Assembly: GCA_002838945.1 (NCBI GenBank)
Contig: PGXB01000037.1
Location: forward strand, 1-37,755
Reading direction: 5' to 3'
Length of the DNA stretch: 37,755 nt
DNA from: a candidate division Zixibacteria bacterium HGW-Zixibacteria-1
Lineage (GTDB): Bacteria; Zixibacteria; MSB-5A5; GN15; PGXB01
Shown: one piece after another, positions 6,376 through 37,755 of the stretch
Position numbering within the stretch: position 1 is the stretch's first letter
Layout: every line of letters begins with the position of its first letter
Position numbers and translations under genes: made by a program
Notes under the pieces: generated by a model
Database searches by the model: none
Told to the model about the DNA's origin: nothing
The model's input: the letters and a program-made list of their open reading frames with translations, nothing else

Positions 6376-7002
6376 TTACCTGGAAAACTTTTTATACCTG
6401 TCGTTGATGCGTCCCCAATGCAAATTATTCAATAAATTGTCGATGTATTTGGCACGGCCCGGACCATCCTTGTGATAGTAGGCATGCTCAAAAACATCAA
6501 GCGAAATCAGGGGAATACCGCCCCAGATGGCGCCGTAATGATGCTCATCGACCAGCACATTCAACAGCCTGCCGCTGTATAATTTGTCAAGTGTCAGGAC
6601 CGCCCATCCGGAAAGTTTGGCCGCAATCGCGGTCGCCTTGAAATCTTCTTTCCATTTTTCGATACTGCCGAATTCTTTTTCGATCGCCGCGACTATATCC
6701 GGGCCCTTTGAAGTGTCGCCGTTGCCGCCGAGTACTTCCCAGTAAACGTCATGCAGCAGGGCGCCGCCGTGATTCCAGGTCATTCGCCGCTTCAATTCGC
6801 CCAGTTCCGACCAGTTGCCGTTGGCCGTGGAGCGATCGACTTTTTCCAGATTTTGCTCGATTTTATTCAGAAAGGTGACATAACCCTTATGGTGCGTGTT
6901 ATAGTGCCAATCGGTCGTTTCGGGTGAAACAACATCTTTAAGCAGTTTCTTGGCATCTTCGTCCGAATACGGACGCTTGTTAAATTTCCATTCGTAAGCC
7001 AT
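6376..7002 (-). CDS. Iron/manganese superoxide dismutase
   Basis: This 208-residue enzyme converts superoxide to hydrogen peroxide and oxygen. The four metal ligands of the Fe/Mn family are visible: His33 in WHYNTHHKGY, His84 in HDVYW, and Asp169 and His173 in LDVFEHAYY. The usual N-terminal helical hairpin and C-terminal alpha/beta domain are both complete. There is no signal peptide, so it is cytoplasmic. Fe or Mn preference cannot be read safely: the residues usually used to separate them (Gly/Gln near the second His) are non-standard here (WNHGGALLH). AGGAG lies 6-7 nt before the ATG at 7002. The gene has its own terminator and a 374-nt upstream region, so it is probably transcribed alone. 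Confidence 0.95.
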   Translation of the reverse strand: MAYEWKFNKRPYSDEDAKKLLKDVVSPETTDWHYNTHHKGYVTFLNKIEQNLEKVDRSTANGNWSELGELKRRMTWNHGGALLHDVYWEVLGGNGDTSKGPDIVAAIEKEFGSIEKWKEDFKATAIAAKLSGWAVLTLDKLYSGRLLNVLVDEHHYGAIWGGIPLISLDVFEHAYYHKDGPGRAKYIDNLLNNLHWGRINDRYKKFSR

Positions 7003-7376
7003 TTTAATCTCCTTTATAGTCCTAAGATTTTCGTTCTCTTTAACTTCAAATGATGACTCTCTGCTATCCCTGAATTCAAAACCTCAATTTTACATGTAAC
7101 CATGTTGCTCCCGAAATGTTCCACAAAAAAGTAAGGATTATTTGCAATATAGGATATTCCATTGACATCACTTCTATCTTATTGATATTCAAGCGGATGA
7201 TTGTAAAATAGACATTAGCGATACTGTTAATCTTGTCCCGTTTAAATGTTTAAAATGATTGATAAATTTTAAAAAAGTATTTTATTTCATTTTAGGATAT
7301 TTTGTTAATCTTAAACTGTCAGCTTGTTATTTTGTCTGAAATGGCAGGTTTTTGCGGATTGTAATATAGTAATAAG
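7003..7376. other. AT-rich intergenic region between divergent genes
   Basis: This 374-nt stretch has no convincing gene. It must hold the superoxide dismutase promoter (minus) and that of the 7377 gene (plus). A 10-bp perfect palindrome TTACATGTAA at 7090-7099 could be an operator for the dismutase. No clear -35/-10 pair was found for the minus strand. Confidence 0.6.
7362..7367 (+). promoter_or_regulatory. -10-like hexamer close to the 7377 start (possible leaderless mRNA)
   Basis: TAATAT lies 9 nt before the ATG at 7377. No Shine-Dalgarno is present, so transcription would begin at or within a few bases of the ATG. There is no good -35 at 16-18 nt. Confidence 0.35.
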
Positions 7377-8003
7377 ATGGAATTGTATTTTTTAAATGAA
7401 ATAGGAAAAACATTTGGCATCGGTGGTCTATGCATCGCTGTGTTTCTTCTTATTATTAGGTTAATCTTTCGCAAAATGAAATTTCCCAAATTAACGAGGG
7501 AGCATACCTATAGGATAATAGACAAAAGTATAAGATATGCTTTTATACTGGCTATCGTAGGTTTAGTAATTTATTCTGGTAATATTATGGATAGATTTTC
7601 AGGGAAATCAATAAAGGCTGAAAATACAACTCAATCATTCAGGTTAACCGGCTTTTTCAACCAAAAATTAGTAAATAATGTGATTAAATTGACAGGAATT
7701 CCATACACCAGTACTGGGAGTGCCACATTTGATATATCATTTACCCAAAATGGGTTACTAAGGCCATCCCAAAAGAGTGGCTACTATTTATATGATGGCG
7801 GTACCTTACTTCTTGTTATTAATAATAAAATAAAGTGCGAAATATCACAATTGACAATTCCGGCTTGGTCAGATTCGCCGGGCAACCCAAAAGCTATCTT
7901 GGAACATAATATTGAACAGAATATTAATGATCTAATAGCCTCCAATATAGAATTAATCGCTGCAAGAATTAAGGAATGTCTTGATAATGAATCAAAAATA
8001 TAG
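7377..8003 (+). CDS. Unknown membrane protein with two N-terminal transmembrane segments
   Basis: The 208-residue product was not recognised. Two hydrophobic segments (about residues 14-31 and 50-66) are separated by a basic loop (RKMKFPKLTREHTYR). About 140 polar residues follow, with alternating beta-like stretches and a helical, Asn/Ile-rich end. If the second segment exits, the C-terminal domain would be periplasmic. The gene overlaps the start of the next by 17 nt, so the two are almost certainly co-expressed. The base composition is visibly AT-rich compared with neighbours on both sides, and Ile/Asn/Lys codons ending in A or T dominate, which suggests recent acquisition. It has no homologue that I can name. 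Confidence 0.75.
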   Translation: MELYFLNEIGKTFGIGGLCIAVFLLIIRLIFRKMKFPKLTREHTYRIIDKSIRYAFILAIVGLVIYSGNIMDRFSGKSIKAENTTQSFRLTGFFNQKLVNNVIKLTGIPYTSTGSATFDISFTQNGLLRPSQKSGYYLYDGGTLLLVINNKIKCEISQLTIPAWSDSPGNPKAILEHNIEQNINDLIASNIELIAARIKECLDNESKI

Positions 8004-9729
8004 AGCCAATAGCCAATCTATAATTGCAGTCTTATTTGTCTGCTTTCTTTTTATTTCTTTGCACAATAGCGCAATTGCAGATTCCAAGAGATTATTGATA
8101 TATGCCCAAAATACTGCACTTTTACCACAGATTGAGGCTATTTTAAAGAACCTGAGAAATGCGGAAACAGACGAATTGATATTTTCCAATATTGTAAATC
8201 TAAATGTTTGGGCAATTAATCAAGATGAAACTGGCAATTTGGATGATCTTATTAGATTCTATGAATCAAATCAGCAATTAAGGAGAAAGGCTCGCGAGGC
8301 CAGGCAAAGCGATGATTCCCTAGTAGATTTAATTATAAATGCTGATAGTTATATCAGGTTTGATGTATTAGAAAAACTTCCATTATTAGAATTTCAGCTA
8401 ATAATAACCGATTCAATACCTCATCGCTCAAGAGATGAATTTCAAATATTAGTAACCAGTAGTACAAGATATAATGGATTCATTATTGATTTATCAAGTG
8501 ATGATTATATTAATCAACTTGATTGCAATTTAAGAAAATTATTCCCAGAGTCTAATAGGCTACCCCAACCCGTTATACAAATTAATTCTAGCAGGAATAG
8601 TGACGGTTTTTTTTATTATGGCACTGGCAATAAAATCATTATCGATGCATCCAATTCTTATGATCCGGATGGCAATGAGAGGCCCTTGGAGTTTATTTGG
8701 AGGCAGATTAATCCAATAGACAGCTCCAGGCCAATTAGCGCAAGTGAATTTATAGCCCTGAAACAGGGCGAAAGTGTTCAGGAAATCTCAACGAGAAATG
8801 TTTGTGAATTTAATATCGCCTTGGTAATATCGGATGGTATCTCAAAATGTAAGGAGGAAATAATCAAGTTTAGATATATTGATAAACCCATTATTTCAAG
8901 TAAGTCTTATAATTATTCCATAGATTCATATCCTGGTTTGAAGAGAAAGGATAGGATTTATATTCCAATATCTCTTTTTGTTACGACAAAAGATACCACA
9001 GATCTGGTATTATATAAAGTCCTGGTTCAACGAAAAAAAGATATTTTTGACATTTTTAAAAAATCGGTTTTTGAGTATCAGAAAATTGATTCAGTGAATC
9101 CAGCGTGGTTCGATTTGATTGAGGAGAGTATTCAACCACAAGGAAACAGTAGAAAATATATCCTGAATTTCATCTACCCCAGAGATGATTGGTGGAAATC
9201 CTCATATAAGTTTTATATTTTTGCTAGAAATCAATATACCACCAGTGATACTATTGAAATTACGGTAGATCATAATATTCATAGTTTTGAAGGCAAGGCA
9301 GATATAGTCATTTCAAAATATTATAAACTAAATGATGATGGTTATAACTTTGCGGGCGAAAGAAATATTTTATTAAATCTGGCTTATAAATATTATTTTA
9401 GTAGAAAATTGTCACTCGAGATTGGAACTCAACAAAATGTTTATGACGAAAATAATATTAAAAATAGGAAATATTTTAAACTGACTAGTTCATATTTTTC
9501 TCTGAATTATTCTTATATTTCAATGGGTTTATATCAGGCTGGGATTTATGGTGGATATGGCTGGAGCATGGATTTTGGAAAACTGTTGGTAGATAAATCA
9601 GTATTGCTCGAGTTTGTGGCTTTTAATAGGGGGTGGTCGACCCTTTCTCTTCGCGCTGGTGGCGAGATATCCTTGAGAAGTTTTATGCTATTAGCAATTA
9701 GTTCTTATGTGCTTATGGTATTGTCCTGA
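7987..9729 (+). CDS. Unknown secreted protein with PKD-like domain and possible C-terminal barrel
   Basis: The product has 580 residues. The start at ATG 7987 is supported by AAGGA about 9 nt upstream; a TTG two codons earlier is less likely. A signal peptide covers residues 1-32 (hydrophobic run, then SAIADS). Residues about 33-190 form an unrecognised alpha/beta domain. Residues about 195-300 look like a PKD/Ig-type domain, with IDASNSYDPDGNERPLEFIW matching the typical PKD core. Another Ig-like stretch follows (about 305-425). The last 140 residues alternate aromatic and polar residues in a pattern like outer-membrane beta strands, but end in an unusually hydrophobic tail. It is translationally coupled to the membrane protein upstream, so the two may form an envelope-spanning pair. 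It is strongly AT-rich, and no enzymatic motif is seen. Confidence 0.75.
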   Translation: MNQKYRANSQSIIAVLFVCFLFISLHNSAIADSKRLLIYAQNTALLPQIEAILKNLRNAETDELIFSNIVNLNVWAINQDETGNLDDLIRFYESNQQLRRKAREARQSDDSLVDLIINADSYIRFDVLEKLPLLEFQLIITDSIPHRSRDEFQILVTSSTRYNGFIIDLSSDDYINQLDCNLRKLFPESNRLPQPVIQINSSRNSDGFFYYGTGNKIIIDASNSYDPDGNERPLEFIWRQINPIDSSRPISASEFIALKQGESVQEISTRNVCEFNIALVISDGISKCKEEIIKFRYIDKPIISSKSYNYSIDSYPGLKRKDRIYIPISLFVTTKDTTDLVLYKVLVQRKKDIFDIFKKSVFEYQKIDSVNPAWFDLIEESIQPQGNSRKYILNFIYPRDDWWKSSYKFYIFARNQYTTSDTIEITVDHNIHSFEGKADIVISKYYKLNDDGYNFAGERNILLNLAYKYYFSRKLSLEIGTQQNVYDENNIKNRKYFKLTSSYFSLNYSYISMGLYQAGIYGGYGWSMDFGKLLVDKSVLLEFVAFNRGWSTLSLRAGGEISLRSFMLLAISSYVLMVLS

Positions 9730-10034
9730 AATAAGATATGGCCCGCAAATGCCTCCTTTGCCCTTCCTGTTATGTAAATTGGAAAGCACTTTTTAGCATT
9801 ATCTCCAATTACAAACAGGCAGGGCCTCGTACTCCTGCAAGGTCCTGCCTAAAATAAACGCACAAAAAATCAAGAGTTGTTTGCTCAAGAACCTCTGAGT
9901 CTATAGTGCGATTCTGTCTAATATGGGTGATGTTCGCGGTTTTTCTTGCAGATTTTTATATGGTGCAAGCACTTATTGAAGGAAAATATTGCCGGTTTTT
10001 CACAGCCAACGTCGATTCGTATATATATTATGCC
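9730..10034. other. Intergenic region with inverted repeats, no convincing gene
   Basis: This is 305 nt between two convergent genes. It holds a 7-bp inverted repeat (AATTGGA at 9777-9783, TCCAATT at 9804-9810) and a stronger hairpin at 9818-9849. Short open frames at 9906 and 9946 are shadows of the acetyltransferase gene, extended leftwards. Confidence 0.5.
9818..9849 (+). terminator. Hairpin, probable terminator for the 7987 gene
   Basis: A 10-bp stem with one G-T pair (9818-9827 with 9840-9849) and a 12-nt loop lies about 90 nt past the stop. The following sequence is A/T-rich but has no real T run, so termination may be weak. Confidence 0.45.
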
Positions 10035-34851: not shown

Positions 34852-34922
34852 TGGGAGATCGTCCAACGGCAGGACACGTGGCTCTGGACCACGGTATCGG
34901 GGTTCGAATCCCTGTCTCCCAG
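34852..34922 (+). tRNA. tRNA-Gln (anticodon CTG)
   Basis: The full cloverleaf is visible. A 7-bp acceptor stem (TGGGAGA at 34852-34858 with TCTCCCA at 34915-34921) is followed by discriminator G at 34922. The D arm holds a short loop, the anticodon stem has loop CTCTGGA (anticodon CTG), and the T arm carries GGTTCGAATCC. CCA is not encoded. The U1-A72 pair and G73 are glutamine identity features. It reads CAG codons. Confidence 0.95.
34899..34922 (+). other. Probable attachment site (tRNA 3' end) of the integrative element
   Basis: A tyrosine recombinase gene starts 101 nt after the tRNA, on the same strand, the usual layout for elements that insert into the 3' end of a tRNA gene. The T arm and acceptor half are the likely core. 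The matching copy at the other end would lie beyond the window. Inferred from context only. Confidence 0.55.
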
Positions 34923-35023
34923 CTTATTTGTGTACTAATCCCATCAATAACAAGAAGTTGCCAAAACCGGAAATCGTTCTTTTGTGACATTCTATGACAA
35001 AAGGGCTAATTTTGGAGGTCAAA

Positions 35024-36073
35024 ATGGCGACTTTGTATCATCGAAAAGGCTGTTATTATCTGAATTATTCGGTCAATGGTAAGCGAGTCAGAAAATCTGT
35101 TGGTACAGACAAAAGAGAAGCAGATATTCTGCTCAAAGAACTTCGCTATAAGCTATTCAAAGGTGATATCCGACCCAATCGTCCTGAGATTCCCATTGAT
35201 TTCTTTTTTAATAACTATCTTGAGAGTTGTGATTCTCGATTGACCAAAGGGACTTATATCAGATATTACAATGCCATTAAACACTTCAGAAAGTTCTTTA
35301 CGGTTCACTCTCCTATTCAGTTTATCAGTCAGATTGGCAGAGGAAATCTTCAGGAATATATGTTGTACAGACAGAATAATAAACCTAAACCGAAGGCAAA
35401 GACTATCAATATCGAGCTTACTGTTATTAGAGCAGCTTTAAGTTGGGCTGTCGATAATGATTGGCTGGAAAGTAACCCTGCCAGCCGTTTAAAACTGCTC
35501 AAAACGAGCGATTCCAAAAAGGGTAAGGCTCTCACTGAGGAGGAAGTAAACGCTCTTCTCCGTGGCTGTGAGACGCTTAGAAGTGGATTCTGGTTCAGGG
35601 ATATACTTATTACCCTTTTGAACACAGGAATGCGTAGAGGTGAGCTGGTCAATCTTACATGGGATGATATCGATTGGGAACAGGAGCTTATTAAAATCCA
35701 GGAGAAGCCTTTTTGGAGTCCCAAATCATATGAACGAACTATCCCTGTCAATCAAACCGTCAAAAGTATTTTGGAAAAATTTCAGTCGAACTCTAAATGT
35801 TCTTTTGTTTTTAACAATAACAACAGAAAGATTGAGGATAATGTCTTGAGAAAGAAGCTTCTCACCTTATCCAGACGGGTAGGACTCCCTCACATTACCA
35901 GAATCCATGACTTCCGGCACACCTTTGCTTCCAATTTACTCATGGCAGGAGTCGATATCCCCACTGTTCAGAGCTTGCTAGGCCACAGGAGTTGGAATAC
36001 GACAATAATCTATTCCCATCAGACTCAGGAACACACCAAAAAAGCTGTGGAAAAACTTGTAAATGCCAGATAA
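35024..36073 (+). CDS. Tyrosine recombinase / phage-type integrase
   Basis: The 349-residue protein starts at ATG 35024, where GGAGG lies 5 nt upstream; an ATG at 34994 in the same frame lacks one. Residues 1-60 form an arm-binding-like domain (MATLYHRKGCYYLNYSVNGK), about 62-160 the SAM-like core-binding domain, and about 175-345 the catalytic domain. The catalytic residues are in place: Arg204 in TGMRRGEL, a lysine in the beta hairpin (KSYERTIP), His295 and Arg298 in HDFRH, His321 in LGHRSW and the nucleophile Tyr330. It should cut and rejoin the att site at the tRNA-Gln end. No excisionase gene was found in the visible part. Lower GC than the genes to the left agrees with transfer. Confidence 0.95.
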   Translation: MATLYHRKGCYYLNYSVNGKRVRKSVGTDKREADILLKELRYKLFKGDIRPNRPEIPIDFFFNNYLESCDSRLTKGTYIRYYNAIKHFRKFFTVHSPIQFISQIGRGNLQEYMLYRQNNKPKPKAKTINIELTVIRAALSWAVDNDWLESNPASRLKLLKTSDSKKGKALTEEEVNALLRGCETLRSGFWFRDILITLLNTGMRRGELVNLTWDDIDWEQELIKIQEKPFWSPKSYERTIPVNQTVKSILEKFQSNSKCSFVFNNNNRKIEDNVLRKKLLTLSRRVGLPHITRIHDFRHTFASNLLMAGVDIPTVQSLLGHRSWNTTIIYSHQTQEHTKKAVEKLVNAR

Positions 36074-36430
36074 TATTCTCTTTTTTAGGTCCAATTACCC
36101 TTCAGGAATACCCTTTAAACTTCCAAAGAAGCCCTCTGGAAAGACTTCTGGAGGGTAGGGGGCTTGTTCTATGTCAGAATTATGACTGGACTGGTTAAAG
36201 CCTGCTAATACCCCGGCTTACAAATTTGGGCTCTAAATGGCTGACATGGTGTGGGAACACATCAGGTCGGAGGACTCCACCTGTGAACTTGTGAACGTTG
36301 TGAACATTGGGAGGGGTGAGAGAGAGAAGAGAGGGGTTATTTTTAATATTTATTTATTATATATATAATAAATATATCTTCTGTTTCCCTTCCCTCTCCC
36401 TTTTTAACGTTCACTATGTTCATACGTTCA
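36074..36430. other. Noncoding region with an origin-like block
   Basis: The 357-nt gap between integrase and ATPase genes has no supported gene. Its left half contains a G/C-rich imperfect stem (AAGCCC and GGGCTT around 36127-36165). Its right half is the symmetrical TGAAC-unit and AT-palindrome block described separately. Confidence 0.6.
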
Positions 36431-36432
36431 TC
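36282..36432. repeat. Inverted clusters of TGAAC units flanking an AT-rich palindrome (origin- or operator-like)
   Basis: Three direct TGAAC units occur at 36284-36288, 36292-36296 and 36301-36305 (periods 8 and 9). Three inverted ones (GTTCA on the plus strand) are at 36409-36413, 36418-36422 and 36426-36430, read inward from the right with the same periods of 8 and 9. The two 27-nt modules agree at about 20 positions when one is reversed. Between them lie a purine tract (36309-36336), a 24-nt perfect AT palindrome, and a pyrimidine tract (36377-36404). The right cluster abuts the ATPase stop codon. This is what iterons next to a DNA-unwinding element would look like; a transcription operator is the alternative. 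Confidence 0.6.
36351..36374. repeat. 24-nt perfect AT-only palindrome
   Basis: The sequence from 36351 to 36374 is its own reverse complement and contains only A and T. It could extrude as a cruciform or melt easily, and lies near the centre of the two iteron-like clusters. Confidence 0.85.
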
Positions 36433-37657
36433 ATGAGGCTAATCCGTATTGGTCAACTAATTCCAAAATCCGTTCACGGTTGGAATCGGTGGGCATTATA
36501 TAAACCCCATTGGCATCCCGGTCTTTCTCAAGCTTTAAGTCCTGCTCGATGATAACGCCGACCTTTTTGGCGGTAATTTCTTTCGATTGGCCCTCAAATC
36601 CATTTCGTAGCTTTTCTGAGATATATTTACAATATACCTTGGAGTCTGTCGCCCCATTGATGATTTCAATGATTCTACCATTTATTGAATCCGCTTTATC
36701 AGCTTTTATTGCCGCTTTGTGTTTATCCAAGTATTCCGTTAAAACCGGTTTTATATTTTTAGGAACAAAAGAAAACAATGGAGCAAATACTTGCTTTGTT
36801 CGATTATCATAATCTCCTTCTATATCAAATGATAATGGCTGAGTATTACTAAGATAATCAAATCGATATTTTAATAGTTTATTTCTCAGCTCCAAAGCTC
36901 CGCCATCTATTTCTTTGGGCAGTTGTATGGGTTTCCCGTGTTCTGGTTGATATTCCAGATAGAGTTTGATACACCTTGACGCTAAGGCTGCATCAAATAT
37001 TGGGTCAATTGTAGTTATGATTTTGGGACAAAATACACTAAATCTTTCCGTAATGTATTGCCCATCCCTATTCTGATTTGTTCTATGAACAGGATTACCT
37101 GTCTCAAAGCCTTGCTTATAAACATTGCTAGTTTCATCGTTTTTATTTTTAGTTAAAATATCATTCTCGTCAGAAACTACAGTTCCCCTGATTTGATTGG
37201 TAATCCTAAAAAGGGTGGAAACAGTTGAGGAACCAGAATGTGGTACACCCAAAAATACTAACCTGAGGAGCAAATCTTTTAATCTAGACTTACCATGCCC
37301 AGGTTGGCCTTGGATGTGCAAATAAGGAAAACATTTGAAAGAATCATAAATCCAAGTCCCGACCACATAAGCTGCACATATATGCAAATATTCCTCTGGT
37401 ATTAATATATAGGCAGCTAAAAAATCCTCTATTTCTTGATATAATTTTTCATCGCACTGATAATCCTTAGGATATGATGGTAGAAAAATATAATTTTCCA
37501 GTACCTCAGAAATAAGATTGTAAGGAGGAACGTATTTAAATTTGTTATCCTTAGTAATAATCTCATTTTCAAAAGAATAATTATCACCATTGCGGACAAT
37601 ATATTGGACTTGTTCATTTTTATAGATGATATTGAATGTTTTTTGGTCAATATCACT
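36431..37657 (-). pseudogene. Replication-type AAA ATPase/helicase, 5' part cut off by an insertion element
   Basis: A minus-strand frame of 408 codons runs without a stop from 37657 to the TGA at 36431, and no ATG start occurs in its first 90 codons; the upstream end is replaced by the terminal repeat of an IS. The Walker A motif GQPGHGKSR (Lys at visible residue 123) is followed by SDEND as Walker B (about 162-166), and ASRCIKLYLE as a possible arginine-finger region. The C-terminal 90 residues form a winged-helix-like tail (SEKLRNGFEGQSKEITAKKV). The arrangement resembles D5/DUF3631-type helicases of plasmids and phages. A TTG at 37387 could start a shorter product but would leave out part of the fold. 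It is AT-rich and converges on the integrase. Confidence 0.7.
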
Positions 37658-37755
37658 TGAAGTTCCCCCGATTTAGTGGACACGGAGAAAGGATACTATT
37701 ATTATGATTCTTTCTCATCCTGAGTCCCGAAGGACAGGAGGTGTTCAGATGTTGA
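37658..37755 (+). mobile_element. Left end of an IS3-family-like insertion sequence (continues beyond window)
   Basis: From 37658 the sequence reads TGAAGTTCCCCCGATTTAGT, then GGACAC, closely resembling IS3-family terminal repeats (TG at the tip, CCCC and GTGGACA further in). A short spacer is followed by AGGAGG (37736-37741) and an ATG at 37749, the likely start of orfA, cut by the window. The transposase itself is not visible, so the family is judged from the terminus only. The insertion breaks the ATPase gene. Confidence 0.6.

Follow-up and report, generated by a model that had tools for sequence, protein, structure and literature searches.

The 37,755-nt stretch of DNA that we analysed (the window; contig PGXB01000037.1 of the candidate division Zixibacteria bacterium HGW-Zixibacteria-1) carries a 150-base block in which three short repeats on the left are mirrored by three on the right, with an AT-rich core between them. 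Judging from its sequence and its recurrence, this block very probably serves an integrative mobile element as replication origin (its cis site), and the primase-helicase whose gene adjoins it would be the protein that reads it. The left arm (36284..36305, + strand) contains three TGAAC units starting at 36284, 36292, and 36301, spaced by 8 and 9 nt. The right arm (36409..36430) contains three GTTCA units, which are TGAAC on the - strand, starting at 36409, 36418, and 36426, spaced by 9 and 8 nt. The spacings are mirrored, and position 36357 is the exact midpoint of each pair of unit centres. Between the arms lie a purine tract (36318..36336), a 41-nt AT-only tract that is a candidate unwinding region (36337..36377), and a pyrimidine tract (36384..36405). 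The AT-only tract includes a perfect 24-nt AT palindrome (36351..36374), whose centre at 36362.5 is about 5 nt off the iteron centre. The mirrored triplets with periods of 8 and 9 around an AT palindrome are exactly as a sequence-only reading had described them, and its claim that such symmetry is improbable by chance was borne out. Using the same criterion for the window and for simulations (any 5-mer, spacings of 6-12, identical in both arms), the block was the only mirror triplet in the 37.7-kb window, and none was found in 200 simulated windows (0/200) or in 5000 simulated 367-nt blocks (0/5000).

Two genes converge on the block and flank it with their 3' ends. On one side, a tRNA-Gln(CTG) gene (34852..34923, + strand; ARAGORN), the presumed integration target, is followed 71 nt downstream by the start of a gene encoding a tyrosine integrase of 359 aa (34994..36073, + strand; Pfam Phage_integrase, E=4e-32). 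When the assembly was searched with the tRNA end, no clear copy corresponding to attR was detected. On the other side, the ATPase gene, hereafter rep (36431..37657, - strand), ends with a stop codon at 36431-36433, directly followed by the first right-arm unit. The 5' side of rep is cut at 37658 by the end of a multi-copy IS with an IS3-like terminus (37658..37755), within which the contig ends. This IS end reads TGAAGTTCCCCCGATTTAGTGGACA from 37658; the genome contains about 27 identical copies of it, mostly at contig ends. Elsewhere in the window, the region 7000-10000 is G+C-poor (31-34% vs about 48%) and holds ORFs of 208 and 582 aa that gave no match in Pfam; it is possibly a foreign insert.

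The replication-type ATPase gene that had been noticed beside the block turned out to be the 3' part of a primase-helicase gene, encoding the C-terminal ~408 aa as defined by the open frame and by homology, with an AAA+ fold in the model. The plasmid test proposed earlier presumed an intact gene; this did not hold, as rep lacks its 5' part, which is replaced at the IS. The window protein is homologous to the 798-aa AEP/PriCT_1-helicase of the related genome G082 (E=4.7e-52) and also to viral Toprim-helicases. Since its relatives are 500-1000 aa long and several of them have AEP/PriCT_1 or DnaG/Toprim primase parts, it is a piece of a larger protein. We searched the genome for the missing 5' half with the G082 protein, PriCT_1, and Toprim_2 and did not find it, the searches returning only the window copy, a sub-threshold PriCT_1 match, and what is likely the host DnaG. 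Because the helicase gene is IS-interrupted and its 5' half was not found, the replication module is probably inactive in this genome, unless other members of the population carry it intact.

The AlphaFold model of the window protein (pLDDT 90.6) comprises an AAA+ helicase followed by a winged-helix-like domain at the C-terminus. The Walker A motif GQPGHGKS (37286..37309, - strand) contains the columns G122, G127, and K128, which are invariant or nearly so in a 60-sequence alignment. The winged-helix-like end (residues ~340-408; 36434..36655, - strand) shows the order H-H-E-E-H in the full model; modelled alone, it was poor (pLDDT 69) and had no match in the PDB. With Foldseek, the full model matched the NrS-1 helicase and ASFV PrimPol (E ~1e-6), the SaPI5 primase-helicase (1e-4), and also MCM. 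The model matched viral Toprim primases as well. No Pfam family matched the window protein, Pfam gave nothing meaningful for 60 relatives, and the PHROG matches of the window protein were only marginal. It belongs to a helicase family that has no Pfam entry and is unnamed. Single-sequence scans of genome contigs and viral contigs with the window protein gave no match, nor did a plasmid search, and the relatives described here were reached only by genome search, DNA layout search, and a small protein alignment.

One check suggested by the sequence-only reading was to look in related elements for units that are kept while spacers vary, and the elements passed it, with a TGAAC array in G082 and a recurrent layout in viral contigs. 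G082 is the closest relative; its helicase is 30% identical and the order tRNA-integrase-rep is kept. Downstream of rep, it carries a TGAAC-8-TGAAC-9-TGAAC array matching that of the window, which reads GTTCACAACGTTCACATGTTCAC and has the same polar 9,8 spacing. Among the 132 genomes of the phylum, the polar TGAAC triplet was found in only three: that of the window (twice), G082, and one genome with a single site that likely arose by chance. No TGAAC cluster was seen in the more distant Zixibacteria relatives L012-L017. Among these, L012, L013, and L015, and also L014 and L016, have DnaG-type primase-helicases, or a helicase with a serine recombinase.

We looked for the mirror layout in IMG/VR using DNA only, with no protein information, and obtained the contigs L055-L059. 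In L055, L056, and L059, the block is located at the 3' end of a gene of the same helicase family, while L057 and L058 have too little sequence on the relevant side to judge the neighbour gene. A mirror search with a gap of 119-149 gave no match. In L056, two complete mirror blocks follow rep in tandem (7899-8268), and then comes a ParA gene. A protein-alignment scan yielded 79 loci that overlap the DNA-layout matches. At these loci, TGAAC was enriched downstream of rep (4.1 vs 1.2 per 600 nt, p=3e-6) with a spacing peak at 8-10, and a search independent of the unit detected mirror triplets in 18 of the 78 regions examined there and in none of 1174 control windows. Clusters of at least four spaced units were present at the rep 3' end in 61/79 loci (a set that includes the window, G082, and L017) vs 46/1175 control windows, and of at least five in 53/79 vs 9/1175. 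The other 18 of the 79 loci had no cluster of at least four units with the finder used.

The units themselves differ across relatives (TGAAC, TGTAAAC, GGAAC, TGTAAC, TGTAC, GTGAAG, and GTCACC). In the 53 loci with two converging arms, the median start of the rep-proximal arm is +8 nt from the stop codon, the inter-arm gap is 87 nt, and the unit spacing is 8-10. The gaps are AT-rich in the relatives (0.60 vs 0.46, p=3e-10), and palindromes in them are only mildly enriched (p=0.002). The purine and pyrimidine tracts said to enclose the palindrome are indeed present in the window, but they are not common to the relatives (p=0.6), and we rejected them as a conserved element. We observed that unit distance is correlated with the distance between C-terminal domains (Mantel r=0.31), also when ATPase distance is controlled for (partial Mantel r=0.23, 0/2000 permutations), the reverse partial correlation being about zero. 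The C-terminal domain is predicted, from its modelled fold and this co-divergence, to be the iteron reader. Altogether, the earlier proposal of a replication origin of the integrative element is supported by a layout that recurs 3' of the same helicase family, the G082 array, the AT-rich gap, and the co-divergence of units and C-terminal domain.

Other functions for the repeats were weighed against these observations. Short spaced repeats are typical of operators, and the next downstream ORF is co-directional with rep in 40/60 relatives, where it could start near the block. However, it is quite unlikely that a transcription regulator of the element uses the repeats as its operator: both window neighbours end at the block, so that no promoter of either is located there, the next ORF is convergent in the 20 other relatives of the 60, and the units track the C-terminal domain of the helicase itself. 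We consider a partition (centromere) site to be more improbable still. ParA genes do occur near rep in 12/79 viral relatives, and one stands beside the block in L056, but most loci show no ParA in the sequence covered, and the constant partner of the block is the 3' end of the helicase gene.

The integrase might be suspected of binding the repeats as arm-type sites, because its gene is 210 nt from the block in the window and because the attP arm repeats of P4 are likewise short. The tRNA attachment region, on the other hand, is 1.4 kb from the block, and in 53/53 viral relatives the integrase homologue lies 5' of rep, away from the block, which leaves this reading with very little credibility. 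Finally, a position between converging genes and an inverted symmetry would be compatible with a transcription terminator or a chance cluster of repeats. Direct triplets with matched spacing are no feature of a terminator, and chance is contradicted by the simulations, by the empty control windows of the unit-independent search, and by independent recurrence; the terminator or chance reading is strongly disfavoured by this recurrence, and its probability is close to nil.

The layout extends beyond the helicase family of the window. Overall, with units that vary, it occurs at the end of replication-helicase genes in dozens of phage-like contigs, in a few phage isolates, and in at least two plasmids of archaea. 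Patterns with other spacings or with the unit GGAAC gave 49 more contigs. In counts that are not independent, as several contigs are near-identical and the units are fixed by the search patterns, 44/54 pattern loci carry a primase-helicase or a replicative helicase, and in 36/54 the block is no more than 420 nt away from the stop codon of a long ORF (500 aa or more), as against 13% of random positions. Typed by similarity to representatives that were themselves typed with Pfam, with single-member classes defined by that member, these helicases fall into DUF7146-Toprim (32), the window rep family (6), D5 (2), and VapE, DUF3987, NrS-1-type, and DnaB-like (1 each). Mirror TGAAC or GGAAC triplets were found in IMG/VR at or inside the 3' end of NrS-1-type, DUF3987, VapE, and DUF7146-Toprim genes, which are protein families distinct from that of the window rep. 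In the DUF7146-Toprim_3 genes (L155, L193, L151, L185, and about 28 further loci), GGAAC/TGAAC mirror triplets fall within the coding sequence itself, in its final ~220 nt. Their arms encode differing tripeptides (GEP, CEP, RER; GSP, GSQ, RSP) in different codon phases. Since tripeptides and phases vary while the DNA mirror stays, this points to selection on the in-gene mirror as DNA. Mirror GGAAC triplets were also seen in small viral contigs with no helicase identified nearby (L153, L154, L162, L163, L165, L167, L174, and L149); the block of L149 adjoins a serine recombinase.

If the block is an origin, the C-terminal winged-helix domain of the initiator would bind the TGAAC units, and the two inward-facing arms would load a pair of helicase assemblies that face one another, as a double hexamer. 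The AT-rich core between the arms would then melt and the fused primase could start synthesis in both directions. More broadly, two or three short units per arm, 8-10 nt apart, in inward-facing arms flanking an AT-rich core at the initiator 3' end might be a general origin design across otherwise different self-loading primase-helicase families, bacterial and archaeal (the window rep family, P4/D5, DUF7146, DUF3987, NrS-1, VapE, and pRN1). The unit would be set by the C-terminal domain of each helicase, and known origins such as the pRN1 stem-loop would be special cases; we regard this generalization as evenly balanced between holding and failing. For most phages and integrative elements that encode primase-helicases, the origin has yet to be mapped. 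Should the layout prove general, origins could be predicted from DNA alone, and the pairs of iterons and C-terminal domains would offer many natural specificity variants for the choice of the start site and its opening by self-loading helicases.

Among named replicons, arms were seen in Mycobacterium phage CrimD, Bacillus phage vB_BteM-A9Y, and a Haladaptatus plasmid with a helicase of the same family as that of the window. In the last one, from the haloarchaeon Haladaptatus salinisoli (NZ_CP085334.1), the helicase gene is followed by four pairs of TGAAC, eight units in all. No clear arms were observed in BPP-1, phiBT1, Dismas, Phives, and Rctr41k, which are relatives or D5/AEP phages. A classical RepA iteron plasmid of the RK2/pSC101 type was rejected as a model: the initiator there is a winged-helix protein with no helicase of its own, whereas the neighbour here is an AAA+ helicase.

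The best-supported reading, by analogy, is that the block works like the modules of P4, pRN1, and SaPI. In the satellite phage P4, the annotated crr is a cis-required region directly 3' of the gene for the primase-helicase alpha, as the window block is 3' of rep, and inverted sets of units, the units being ~9-11 nt apart, share the TGAAC core of type I iterons. The unit had not been recognised earlier; its core does match these iterons, but the full P4 type I octamer, GGTGAACA, is absent from the window units. P4 also differs in having two units per arm, the arms being part of two 120-bp repeats. It has a second, distant ori with type II repeats as well; on the window side, the contig ends in the IS. 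Moreover, alpha matches P4-type PHROGs, while the window rep matches neither these nor the D5-type Pfam profile, and hhalign of alpha with the window rep aligned only 33 columns, around Walker A. Since the window helicase is not of the alpha type, filing the block under P4 alpha/crr is unjustified and was rejected.

In the crenarchaeal plasmid pRN1, deletion and relocation placed the origin 3' of orf904, which encodes the primase-helicase; the downstream region is needed for replication, and the origin was published as a 100-nt stem-loop without iterons (PMC4234260). pRN1, which may be compared with G082 here, combines an AEP-type primase, a helicase, and a C-terminal winged helix; the window lacks the AEP half, and its relative G082 has PriCT_1. 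In both systems, the origin or candidate origin is just downstream of the gene, with mirrored units spaced by ~9 nt around an AT-rich stretch. In pRN1, there are two units per arm and the unit is GTCCA, mirrored pairs of which, 9 nt apart, are held by the required stem. Within the region 57-149 nt after orf904, two mirrored TGTCCA units at a distance of 9 nt make up the published 21-nt origin stem. The pRN1 origin stem may be iterons rather than a hairpin.

In PMC7581432, SaPI and SCCmec Cch2 iterons lie directly downstream of helicase genes, and the C-terminal domain of Cch2 binds the putative Cch2 origin. By that description, SaPI and Cch2 resemble the window in that iterons immediately follow the gene of a self-loading helicase, and their C-terminal DNA-binding domain has a putative counterpart in the winged-helix-like end of the window protein; their helicase families differ by sequence, and the mirror-triplet geometry is not described in the text consulted. 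Two features of such a self-loading helicase module are seen here, namely iterons directly downstream of the initiator helicase in the window and relatives (in the 61 loci above) and an AAA+ helicase of NrS-1/D5/MCM-like fold according to Foldseek; a third, binding of the iterons by the C-terminal domain, is predicted from the winged-helix-like elements of the model and the co-divergence. Compared with these systems, the new points are a mirror geometry in which the units diverge, a helicase family without a name, and a hint that several families share a design.
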